DNA from: Erpobdella octoculata
Lineage: Eukaryota > Annelida > Clitellata > Hirudinida > Erpobdellidae
Reading direction: 5' to 3'
DNA length: 64,000 bases
NCBI GenBank assembly: GCA_963978895.1
Contig: OZ022238.1
Coordinates: 32,909,593 to 32,973,592 of the forward strand
Of this stretch, positions 1,394 to 63,700 are shown in pieces; position 1 is the first letter of the stretch; each line of letters starts with the position of its first letter. Under the pieces are notes generated by a model. The model did not search any database and had not been told where the DNA came from. It worked only from the letters and a program-made list of their open reading frames with translations. A program made the translations under genes and the position numbers.

Positions 1394-1510
1394 TACGGCA
1401 TCCGATTTTCGAAAAGTTTCACGTTTGATAGAAAAAGTTTGTAATAAGAAATGGGCCATAGTCTTTAATAAAGCGTGTTTGAAAGAACATCTTGTTCCTA
1501 ATTATTTGAA
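1394..1510 (+). mobile_element. PLE N-terminal fragment
   Basis: The fragment reads [20 protein letters not shown] and then [16 protein letters not shown], after which (TA)n begins at 1511. The same stretch with only a few base changes occurs at 57171-57272 and 60994-61095, so all three belong to one PLE family. It is a piece of the terminal repeat, cut at the same codon as the copy at 61095. Confidence 0.85.
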
Positions 1511-1573
1511 ATATATATATATATATATATATATATATATATATATATATATTTATATATATATATATATATA
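1511..1573. repeat. (TA)n tract
   Basis: A TA tract of about 60 bp, with one TTT interruption, directly follows the PLE codons PNYLK. Confidence 0.95.
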
Positions 1574-1599
1574 AACGCAAACAACCGTTCTCCTTTCTT
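1573..1599 (-). repeat. 27-bp inverted repeat, right arm
   Basis: This is the partner of 1136-1162, an exact reverse complement. It lies at the left edge of the LINE relic starting near 1600. Confidence 0.85.
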
Positions 1600-4500
1600 A
1601 TGGTCAGACCTAGTTAGAGAAAGGAGCAACTTAGAAATGAACGAAAACGAAAATGAATTTCTCATTGTTAGTAACCAAAAACTGAAGAATAGAGGGAAAA
1701 CACCTAACTGATATTCATCCATGCATTACCGATAAAATACCTATGAAAATAGTAGGAAGAAAAACGTTCGATTCTTCTTTAAAAGCCAGCAAAACGATAG
1801 TTAAGAAAAAGACGTACCATCTTGGAAATGTTAGCAAATGTCATAAGGAGGCTATAACTGATCATTTATCGGCCAATGGCATTCAAGTCATTTCCTGCTA
1901 TCCGCTATTCAAAAAAAACTGAAAAAGATAAAGTCAACATCAGCCAAGAATCTACTGCTTTCAGGATTTGCATTGAAGAGAACGATGATGTTAAGCTATG
2001 CAATCCAGACATATGGCCAACTGGTATTATTCTACGGGAATGGGAATTCAAACCTCGTTCTCCAGAAGCACAACAGAAAAATGCATCCTCAACCTCATAA
2101 TGATTGTAGAACTTGACACATCTTCTTCAGCCAACTCTGCATCTATAGACACCTCTTATGAAACTCTAGACAACATCTCAAAATTTTTTTCCAACTCTAT
2201 ACTATTACTCCTTCACATTACCTGCCGTAGTTTAAACAACAAAACCTCAGAACTTGACACCCTTCTTCACTTTTTCTCCCCCGATATTATTGGCATAACT
2301 GAAACTTGGCTCAATGATGTTAAAGCAAGTTTAGTTATATTTCCAAACTACAACTTTGTTTTCAAGAACCGTAAGGAAGGAAGAGGTGGAGGTGTTGGTC
2401 TTCTTGTCAAATCTTATCTATCTTACGAAGTTGTTGAAGTAGATTTTTCAGCCTTCTTTTTTGAGTTCCTGGTAATAAAAGTTACACACCTTCATAAAAC
2501 CTACACCTATTGTATTATCTACCGCCCGCCAAGCTCTAATATATCATGTTTTCTAGACGAACTTCATACTTTACTAAATGATTTTCTTATGCCACACAGG
2601 TTTTTGTTTCTACTAGGTGATTTTAATATTGATTTGCTTAAAATTGATGACCCTGGACACATCTCAAATGATTTTTTCAATCTCTTATCTTCATACCACA
2701 TACTACCAACAATCACCAAACCAACAAGAATAACTCCCGAATCGAAATCTTTAATAGACAATATCTTTACAAATGAGCCAATCTGCAATATTTCTTCATC
2801 AATAATCTACTACGACTTATCGGATCACCTTCCCATAATCATAACAATGAAACGTACAACAAAAATCTATGCCAAAAAATCTATAAGCAGAAGAGCTACA
2901 AAGCCTGCAAACAAATTAAATTTTCTTAATTTGTTGCAAAATACAGACTGGTCCTGTGTATTTCAAGCTTGCAAAAATGCCGACCCTGAAAAAGCTTACT
3001 CAATGTTTATAAACTTATATGATAAGGTTTATAATGAATCTTTCCCTATTTCAAGTTTTCCTTTAGCAAATCCAAAATTTACAAAAAAAATTGGATAAAC
3101 CAGGAATTACTTGATAGGTGCAAATTAAAATCTAAACTTTACAAAAATTACATTAAAGAACCAACCCTTGAAAATAAAGTCAAAGTTGTTCAAAGTAGAA
3201 ACATATTCAAATCTCTGAAGAAAAAAACTATCAAACAATTTTATGCTGAAAAATTTACTTCTTATAAAAACAACATCAGGAAAACTTGAACTTTAATTAA
3301 CTCCCTCATTAACGGAAATCATAAAAATAATAAATTGCATGATAAATTTGTTGTCAACGATTGCTTGACAACCGACGAATTAATTATTAGTGATGCGTTT
3401 AACAGCTACTTTACTGATATCGGAATTAATTTAGCATCCAAGATTCCTGATTATGGAGATTCTTATAAACAATTTTTACCACCTTTGGTTTCAACATTAT
3501 TTAAATTTTCCTCTTGTACTCACTTAGATATAATTAATATTTCTAAAAAACTTAAAATTTCTCATTCTTCTAGGGGTTGATGACATCAACCCTCACCTTG
3601 CTATTCTATCTATTGATCACATAGCAGTGGTACTTTCGTGTATCCTTAACTGTTCATTACAAACCGGTATTGTTCCTCATCAAATAAAATTAGCAAAAGT
3701 CATACCGTTATTCAAATCAGGAAAAAAATCATCAATTTCTAACTACCGTCCAATTTCTATTTTACCATTTTTTTCCAAGTTTTTTGAAAAAGTTGTTCAT
3801 ATACAGCTTTACAATTATTTCAACAAAAATTTATTATTATATGAACATCAGTATGGTTTCGTCCATGTTTCTCTACTTATATGGCTGTTAGTAACTTACA
3901 AGATAAAATTCTTTACTCAATCGACCATAGTGAAATACCCCTTGCAATTTTCCTTGACTTATTCAAAGCCTTTGACACTATTGATCACAATATCATTATT
4001 GCAAAACTAAAGCACTACGGTATATCTCAGACTGAGCTTAACTGGTTTAGAAATTATTTGTCTGGGAGATCTCAATGTGTACAATTTAACATTGAATTGT
4101 CCAGTTTCAAATCTATTACTTGTGGTGTTCCCCAAGGATCTATACTCGGGCCGCTTCTGTTCATAATCTACGTTAATGATCTCTCCAATAGCTCTCAGTT
4201 TTTTAAATATTTTCTATTTGCTGATGACACAACTGTTTTCATTTCAGATAAATCTTTACCAGATTTGACACAAAAAACAAACACTGAACTGAATAAATTA
4301 TCCTTTTGGTTGAAATGCAATAAATTATCTCTTAATGCTAATAAAACTAACTACATTGTATTTCATAATCCTCGTAAAAATTTATCCCAGACAACATAAA
4401 ACTAACAGTTGATGGCTCTAAAATAGATGTTTCAGTAACAAATTTTTTAGGAGTCTACGTTGATCAACACTTAACATGGGCTCATCATGTAAACTATGTT

Positions 4501-5210
4501 TTCAAAAAAGTTTCCCTGCATTCAGGTATAATTGATCGTCTTTCGTGGTTTCTTCCTAGCAAGGTTTTGCTGACACTGTACTTCTTATTAATATATCCTT
4601 TCATTAACTATTGTAATTTTATATGGTGTATCAACTACAGAAGTCGAATAACGAAAATAATGATTTTACAAAAACGTATTATTAGAGCAATTTTTCACCT
4701 GCCCAGGAGTCATTCAACCATAACCACTCGGATAAACAACCATTTGTTGACAGTTGATCAAGTCTGTCTATATCAATCAGCAATTTACATGTATAAGTAT
4801 GCACATGATCTTTCACCCCAATATTCAACGAGTCCCCTTTATAAAGCAGAAGAAGTTCACAACCATTTTGTGCGTTCTAAACACTGTTTCCGTTCAGGAT
4901 TGATCCGCTCGACACTTGGAATGCACTCGATAAAATTTTTTGGTCCTAAGATCTGGAATTCTCTGCCGCATGACATCAACAAAAGTTCTCTCAGCTCATT
5001 CAAGGCTTCTTTGAAAAACTACCTGCTGCACAAGACTTTGAAAGACTTCATACCAATTCAGTGAAGATATTTGCTCTTTTGTAAATTTTTACTTTTTTAA
5101 AATTTTATGTACAGGGTTACAGTCTCGCAGGAACATTTGTTCTTTTTCTGTTGCCCCTTATTTGCTTTTGTCAAAATTGTGATTTTTTTTAATAAAGTTG
5201 TGAAAAAAAA
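1600..5210 (+). mobile_element. CR1/L2-type LINE, broken
   Basis: This non-LTR retrotransposon is truncated inside ORF1. The tail of ORF1 reads to a stop at 2100 and ends WPTGIILREWEFKPR, a C-terminal motif of ORF1 proteins in this LINE group. ORF2 follows with an AP-endonuclease domain (2200-2860; ITETWLN, GDFNIDLL, LSDHLPIII) and a reverse transcriptase (3640-4350; GVPQGSILGPLLF, FADDTT). Stops and frameshifts near 3098, 3290, 3580, 3880 and 4400 make it non-coding. The 3' end carries AATAAA and an A-run near 5190-5210. A second, 5'-truncated copy of the same 3' end lies on the minus strand at 22925-23120. Confidence 0.9.
2101..5064 (+). pseudogene. LINE ORF2 (EEP + RT), disrupted
   Basis: ORF2 overlaps the ORF1 tail in another frame. 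The endonuclease part is open from 1998 to 3098. The RT is spread over frames 3627-4010 and 3881-4399, and the C-terminal domain over 4567-5064 (ends SLKNYLLHKTLKDFIPIQ). Catalytic pieces survive (LDLFKAFDTIDHN, FADDT), but at least four frame breaks prevent a full protein of about 900 residues. Confidence 0.88.
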
Positions 5211-62499: not shown

Positions 62500-62585
62500 A
62501 TATATATGCATGTATATATGTATGTAGGTATATTTGTGCTCTTGTGAAATTGTGTGTGCGCATAATTTTTTTTATCATTGATATA
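62500..62585 (+). repeat. Gypsy LTR fragment
   Basis: TTTGTGCTCTTGTGAAATTG and the following text match 53810-53866 of the 5' LTR. It is the continuation of the 3' LTR after the PLE and Helitron insertions. Confidence 0.72.
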
Positions 62586-62983
62586 TATATATATATATAT
62601 ATATATATATATATATATATATATATATATATATATATATATATATATATATATATATATATATATATATATATATATATATATATATATATATATATAT
62701 ATATATATTTATATATGTTTGAATGTATATATATACATATATATATATATATATATATATATATATATATATATATATATATATATATATATATATATAT
62801 ATATATATATATATATATATATATATATATATATATATATATATATATATATATATATATATATATATATATATATATATATATATATATATATATATAT
62901 ATATATATATATATATATATATATATATATATATGAATTTATGGGTATATATGTATGTATATATATAATTGTTATTTATCTGA
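62579..62983. repeat. (TA)n tracts
   Basis: Two long TA tracts (62579-62707 and 62745-62934) around short TATG and TTTGAATG units, then the LTR remnant AATTGTTATTTATCTG near 62968. Confidence 0.95.
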
Positions 62984-63011
62984 ATATATATATATATATA
63001 TATATATATAT

Positions 63012-63700
63012 ATTTTCTTTAAGACAAGCTCGATTAAAAATAAGTCTCCATTTAGCCGCTATGAGTTTTATAGATACTTTCTCAATATTTCGGAACAACG
63101 TTTTTTGTTTACTGCAACACGTATTAAGAAAAGTATTAACATTTAAAACCTTCTTTATTTCAGACTTACGGGCCGTTTCGGCTTTCGCCATCTTCAGAGT
63201 CTGTAAATACAATCGCGTAAAAGGAGGCAAAAGATAAGAAAACATGTAAGAACTAAATATACAAATAAACTAATATCCTTAAGAAATTATCTTAATAGAA
63301 GGATATTAATAAAAATTATCAAATTTAGACACTGTAATTAAATTAACGTACATAAAATAAACTGGAGTTATGAGGATAAAATAAGTATAATTAAAAACGT
63401 TTAATTAAAGAATAAAATAATAGTAGCAGTAATAATAATAATAATAAAAGCAAGTATTATGATAATAAATAATTAAATTAAGTCGAAATTACATAAGATA
63501 TTTAAATAAATAAAATCAAGAATATCTCCGCTTTCGTCGAACAGTGATGTTCTCGTTTGAAAGTAAATGGAGGAAGGAACTGGATGAGTACGAACAATTG
63601 TCATCAATCGGACATTCTTCTTCGACACAGGTGCGCGCGGTATCATCAGGACTAACAGGTTGATCCAAGTCATCAACAACGGTCGTGAAGGAACAATATA
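63012..63700 (-). mobile_element. Solo PLE terminal repeat
   Basis: On the minus strand: C-terminal codons (CVEEECPIDDNCSYSSSS, tail NENITVRRKR, stop at 63516), a UTR of about 310 bp, an intact hammerhead, and the N-terminal codons [20 protein letters not shown] through [14 protein letters not shown], then (TA)n. It has no RT core and is in the sense direction of the channel gene. The right flank is a short TATGTC(TA)nGACATA palindrome (63703-63730). Confidence 0.88.
63161..63203 (-). ncRNA. Hammerhead ribozyme motif
   Basis: On the minus strand: stem I CAGACU/AGUCUG (6 pairs), core CUGAAGA, one extra U, stem II GGC/GCC with a GAAA tetraloop, GAAAC, near-palindromic stem III CGGCCCG, triplet GUA. 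A damaged second copy lies near 41483-41503. Confidence 0.82.

Follow-up and report, generated by a model that had tools for sequence, protein, structure and literature searches.

The sequence considered here is a 64 kb window (the whole stretch of DNA analysed) of the genome of the annelid Erpobdella octoculata, on contig OZ022238.1 of an assembly of 386 Mb in 94 contigs. Its retroelements are of eukaryotic kinds and are regarded as Penelope-like elements (PLEs) because they show a reverse transcriptase (RT), the structure of a pseudo-long terminal repeat (pLTR) and the tail published for such elements. Their N-terminal pieces nearly always stop at one of two adjacent sites within the open reading frame (ORF), in most cases next to (TA)n arrays. 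Two long frames are present in the window, family A at 26597-29287 and family B at about 57172-60516. RVT_1 was detected in both (44.4 bits in A and 33.8 bits in B, cut-off 29.6), as was, by regular expression, the motif YIG-x-T-TLSRR at residue 749 of A and 702 of B, which is taken here to mark the endonuclease. No Pfam GIY-YIG family was obtained for A at E up to 10 or for B at E up to 0.001. The protein search with family A gave 749 relatives, and the best 120 of these 749 measured 671-1278 amino acids and mostly carried RVT_1. A scan of IMG/VR with the family A protein returned no relative, and no sequence match was found among solved structures. Family A forms a partial tandem, in which a pLTR of 687 bp with the N-terminus and the ORF start inside it is present as a direct repeat (26082-26768 and 28916-29602, 100% identical). 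The 5' ends of the PLEs in the window are variable. Truncated 5' ends, second copies in tandem, inverted pLTRs and short extensions at the 3' end are among the features described for PLEs (PMC8969392).

The original prediction, made from the letters of the window, was that PLE N-terminal pieces of several families stop at two sites. All 15 of the listed N-terminal ends proved real when each junction was read base by base; 14 of them were recovered by a six-frame motif scan, and the one at 37168, whose frame contains a stop, by string search. Eight belong to a short class and stop 0-3 nt past the C-x-K-E codons of the FNRAC-KE motif (at 8609, 18785, 26052, 29604, 31339, 37165, 48697 and 63015). 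The remaining seven form a long class with an offset of +23 to +31 nt past the same codons (at 1487, 8430, 21369, 24630, 30336, 30431 and 61073). An array of (TA)6 or longer lies no more than 60 nt downstream of each of the 15 ends; at 8430, a run of 13 A precedes it. The N-termini at 26770 and 57249 are no ends, since the PLE frame stays open past the motif. The two stopping sites were thus confirmed, the physical end of the element within its reading frame is supported, and the two classes correspond to the published Penelope tail, a short extension. The peptide (V/I)PNYLK, given for the long class, proved too narrow: VPNYLK occurs only in family B, whereas other families have APKY, TPNYLN, LPSYAK, VPKYCK or TPKYVQ.

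Ends were also sought in 259.6 kb outside the window, consisting of 209.6 kb in the downstream neighbour (L009) and 20 spread loci (L010-L029) and of 50 kb in five upstream neighbours (L030-L034). The spread loci, 200 kb in all, were placed at round coordinates fixed beforehand; L009 contains 2500 N and L029 736 N. The search combined a profile of the N-terminus (matches of at least 11.8 bits) with family-by-family DNA comparison, and L031:837, a weak profile match of 5.9 bits, was excluded. Thirteen more ends were found, four in the spread loci and nine in the neighbours, and all of them, 6 short and 7 long, fall on the two sites seen in the window. Eight further loci from an RVT_1 search gave no N-terminal end when scanned with this profile. 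The on-site ends total 28, with 14 short (0-3 nt), 14 long (16-31 nt) and none between, and they make up 28 of the 31 recognised terminal ends. One 4-nt zone and one 16-nt zone contain all 28; in 25 uniform simulations, the best-placed pair of zones of the same sizes contained at most 10 of 28, the 400-nt null interval being a chosen value, the three off-site ends being left out and the offsets being entered by hand. The tail is optional at the copy ends, as is known of PLEs, since both classes are present and family A shows both (short at 29604 of the window and at L031:7700, long at L030:7835). The class is therefore no family trait; ends of both classes were found in families A, C, E, G and J. 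At L031:988-1400, a family-D N-terminus is joined in mid-ORF to a later part of the PLE body; this internal deletion copy is not among the ends counted.

Short proteins of other PLEs in public data show comparable breaks. A profile of the PLE N-termini of this genome retrieved 17 short proteins, two of which are 97% identical to family A and, judging by this identity, probably come from the same or a very near species. Five of the 17 end at the short site and six at the long site, each with an I/Y run that corresponds to translated (TA)n. P0136 ends at the long site with hardly any flank; P0125, P0127, P0130 and P0137 break at or near one of the two sites and proceed with other sequence; P0122 continues as ORF. 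A profile of 42 other PLE N-termini retrieved 28 more short proteins, which break at -2 to +2 codons in six cases, at +7 to +11 in 18 and elsewhere in three (P0161-P0163), while P0139 continues. Since 24 of the 28 break in the same two codon zones but just two (P0138 and P0157) continue with IYIY, the two break zones look general and the (TA)n flank local. Cores are shared within the pairs P0145/P0146 and P0152/P0164. Offsets were read by eye for the 17 proteins and automatically for the 28, where some alignments enter the flank; the search took lengths of 0.55-1.75 times the query, and contig ends can mimic breaks. P0137 is a family-G N-terminus, cut near the short site and fused in frame to a family A C-terminus.

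Such breaks might also have come from a shared ancestral junction or from later deletion along microsatellites, with no rule of insertion behind them. Microsatellites are unstable, and the head-to-head scrap at 41394-41533 does appear trimmed. However, the breaks fall at homologous codons in many families whose sequences and flanks differ, both sites are used within one family, and TA-free fragments of other PLEs break at the same zones, which makes this origin of the junctions extremely improbable.

The flank was originally said always to be (TA)n. This applies to all 15 ends in the window, but outside it 11 of the 13 ends enter (TA)n, and overall (TA)6 or longer lies within 60 nt of 26 of the 28 on-site ends; the flank is thus a strong preference and not a rule. 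The background amounts to 1.5-3.5%, and random non-TA positions of the window had (TA)6 no more than 60 nt downstream in 2.8% or 3.5% of cases (two samplings), so that the enrichment of the flanks was borne out over the window and the sampled loci. The piece at L033:6441 is a family-B scrap that stops near the long site (+16 nt) and continues as (TG)n. TA is found on both sides of 1388-1510, 21344-21465 and 48205-48697, and arrays also adjoin the 5'-truncated starts at 21305 and 26082. Because several inserts are flanked by arrays on either side, the arrays are most likely insertion targets rather than products, and the proposed role of (TA)n as preferred target remains the best reading. In families A and B, for which the continuing ORF is known, the ORF and the TA flank share just one base.

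Long pure arrays adjoining the ends could, conversely, have been made at the primed side by the telomerase-related RT of the element; this RT and telomerase are of common ancestry (PMC3846280). Such a product would hardly account for arrays on the 5' side of several inserts as well as the 3' side. Furthermore, 15 of the 29 arrays in the window and most arrays in the spread loci (27 of 31) have no abutting on-site PLE 3' end, one on-site end adjoins (TG)n, and the short proteins of other PLEs mostly lack TA. Synthesis of the arrays by the element is accordingly very unlikely. An abutting on-site PLE 3' end was found at 14 of the 29 arrays of at least 20 bp in the window, at 6 of 13 in L030-L034 and at 4 of 31 in the spread loci, abutting 3' ends being counted and abutting 5' ends left out. 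The (TA)n target is most likely a local variant of the preference for AT-rich DNA known from the literature. A literature search turned up no description of PLEs that target (TA)n; its incomplete coverage of PLE papers makes this weak evidence of absence. The MuTAnT DNA transposons of Medicago also insert in TA microsatellites (PMC4486113); as DNA transposons without RT, they are alike in target alone.

The ends are best explained by insertion of the PLEs into (TA)n through target-primed reverse transcription (TPRT) that starts inside the template RNA, and a probability of about 0.88 is assigned to this explanation. Following steps taken from the literature, a protein of the element would cut AT-rich DNA, and reverse transcription would begin early in the ORF, at either of two neighbouring sites. 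Each copy would then end at its start site, as expected of an internal start, which is itself suggested by the junction sequences and by analogy with known systems. The closest of these is Poseidon of Anolis carolinensis (PAc), in which RT starts internally at two adjacent ORF sites, the tail is the stretch between them, and AT-rich DNA is cut on both strands (PMC11167929). The elements described here are like PAc in the two adjacent starts in the ORF, the tail, the AT-rich targets and the position of a hammerhead (here a hammerhead-like motif) at the start codon. They differ from it in the start site (mainly 111-118 nt into the ORF in PAc, codon 58 of the family A ORF for the short site here), in the tail (30-40 bp in PAc, 16-31 nt here) and in the target, which in PAc is AT-rich (5'-ATT) and here is (TA)n at 26 of 28 ends. 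Penelope of the rotifer Adineta vaga (Pen2a_Av) is comparable in having the ORF start in the pLTR, head-to-head inverted pLTRs, simple AT-rich targets and an optional tail of 31 bp on one of the inverted pLTRs (PMC3846280). Unlike here, the pLTR of Pen2a_Av includes the first 12 codons, or 22 with the tail. Its target duplications are of 8-10 bp; within (TA)n, duplications would be invisible.

Fixed ends alone cannot separate an internal start from end-primed TPRT on a template RNA that has been cleaved or 3'-processed so as to end at the two sites. A hammerhead-like core, which could supply a cut, is present at the ORF start upstream of the end in 14 of the 28 pieces. It is a motif match rather than a proven ribozyme, since a search of Rfam gave nothing at gathering score (best HH9 at 20.5 bits vs 52), and single folds of eight hammerhead-like stretches gave z from -1.76 to +1.21. 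The start of the core lies upstream of the short site by 153-281 nt; the distance is 164-189 nt in 12 of the 14 pieces, and 153 and 281 nt in the two outliers. In the hammerhead geometry, the cut falls about 40 nt past the core start and would thus remain more than 100 nt away from the short site. In addition, the lizard element initiates RT internally when the RNA is longer, and mutating its hammerhead does not alter insertion (PMC11167929). Ends preformed in the RNA are therefore unlikely. Six of the 20 hammerhead-like motif matches are not tied to an end. One of these six marks where the complete ORF of family A begins; of the other five, read singly, those in L014, L021 and L023 look like chance, and the remaining two belong to the internal deletion copy at L031:988 and to the off-site end at L032:4488.

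Several points weigh against insertion by an internally started TPRT. An RNA 3' end made by processing would give the same ends. Three ends are off-site, namely both ends of 41394-41533 and L032:4488, a hammerhead-bearing piece that stops about 30 nt past the hammerhead. Off-site ends may moreover be under-counted, because the N-terminus profile ends with the short site and the majority of the DNA queries reach no further than the junction; only the family A and B queries extend into the ORF. Two of the 28 on-site ends lack (TA)n, L033:6441 passing into (TG)n and L009:5408 into T-rich sequence. PAc reportedly starts in an AC-rich stem loop (PMC11167929); none was found here, and folding of the start sites revealed no conserved RNA structure (0 pairs in the consensus fold; z from -1.09 to +0.99 in seven single folds).

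In the head-to-head units, the end classes at 8398, 24600 and 30405 are as the original prediction gave them. The rule that the inverted arm is long and the forward arm short is not supported: unit C fits it, unit G is reversed and the middle of unit E gives no orientation, the outcome depending on how the arms are labelled. In unit C, the body-bearing arm is of the short class and can be aligned for about 500 nt, up to the end, with the other copy of family C, and the inverted arm has 117 nt. In unit G, the longer arm (about 150-175 nt) belongs to the long class and is continuous with the copy in L033; the short-class arm has 33-40 aligned nt. One arm of each class was found in all three same-family units with both ends on-site (C, E and G), which are too few to test, the chance of three mixed units with independent arms at even odds being about one in eight. 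A 916-bp insert between (TA)n arrays at L028:6251-7166 is bounded by ends of two families, K and N, both of the long class; the hammerhead core (43 nt, 81%) is the sole repeat that its two halves were found to share. From the three mixed units and this two-family insert, it can be speculated that each end of the broken (TA)n was primed separately by a dimeric complex, with the proximal start on one side and the distal start on the other, possibly on two different RNAs. This remains doubtful, as the L028 insert is long-class on both sides and may represent two events rather than one, and for the lizard element the start sites on the two strands were not seen to differ (PMC11167929).

The observation is right and strong, and the published mechanism covers it. 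As regards the two sites, what is new is breadth only, that is, many families and apparently other PLEs breaking at homologous codons. Also new are the near-exclusive (TA)n target in this genome sample and a testable hint on the priming of the two arms. The window may be regarded as a natural record of the internal RT start, which a study of 2024 demonstrated in vitro in a single lizard element. Breaks in these two codon zones recur in many families and in the short proteins of other PLEs, which makes a two-site start look general. If the density in the spread loci (4 ends per 200 kb) holds, the genome contains thousands of such ends, which in one uniform target would allow a counting test of two-strand priming.

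Table 1. PLE copies and associated arrays in the window.
Feature	Position	Strand	Remarks
Family A insert	26082..29604	+	5'-truncated upstream copy, complete ORF 26597-29287, partial third copy; short class (tblastn, repeat, junction)
(AT)n at family A 3' end	29603..29702		Second array 26052-26081 adjoins the 5' end
Family B scrap, about 120 bp	1388..1510	+	Within (TA)n; long class
Family B element	57168..61096	+	5' truncated at (AT)6; frame with RT and GIY-YIG-like part; 3' partial copy; long class
Family G head-to-head unit	8399..8608		Within (AT)n; long-class arm on - strand, short-class arm on + strand
Family H element	18786..21305	-	5' truncated at (AT)19 (21306-21343); short class at (TA)33
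Family I scrap, 122 bp	21344..21465	-	Between two (AT)n arrays; long class
Family C unit	24600..26051	+	Inverted arm 24600-24716, long class; forward body; forward end 26051, short class
Family D, 3' portion	30085..30358	+	Hammerhead-like core at 30169; long class
Family E head-to-head unit	30406..31342		Arms of about 230 nt, 100% identical; left long, right short class
Family F, 3' portion	36900..37166	+	In-frame stop; hammerhead-like core at 36995; short class
Family C second copy	48205..48697	+	Between two (TA)n arrays; short class; hammerhead-like core at 48534
Family J, 3' portion	63014..63300	-	Hammerhead-like core at 63197; short class
Family J head-to-head scrap	41394..41533		Both ends off-site; right end alone meets (AT)n

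In the family B element, a hammerhead-like core is located at 60891, and the end enters 208 bp of (AT)n. The family H element has such a core at 18973; its body (20345-21305) and its end at 18786 are considered one insert because no TA array lies between them. The family J scrap, which the earlier list had missed, ends at -57 and -33 nt relative to the short site. Apart from the PLE copies, repeats of about 170-240 bp that are 91-96% identical and have no PLE coding match occur between or beside (TA)n arrays at 41606-41777, 49361-49598 and 53534-53777; they are perhaps non-autonomous elements sharing the same target.

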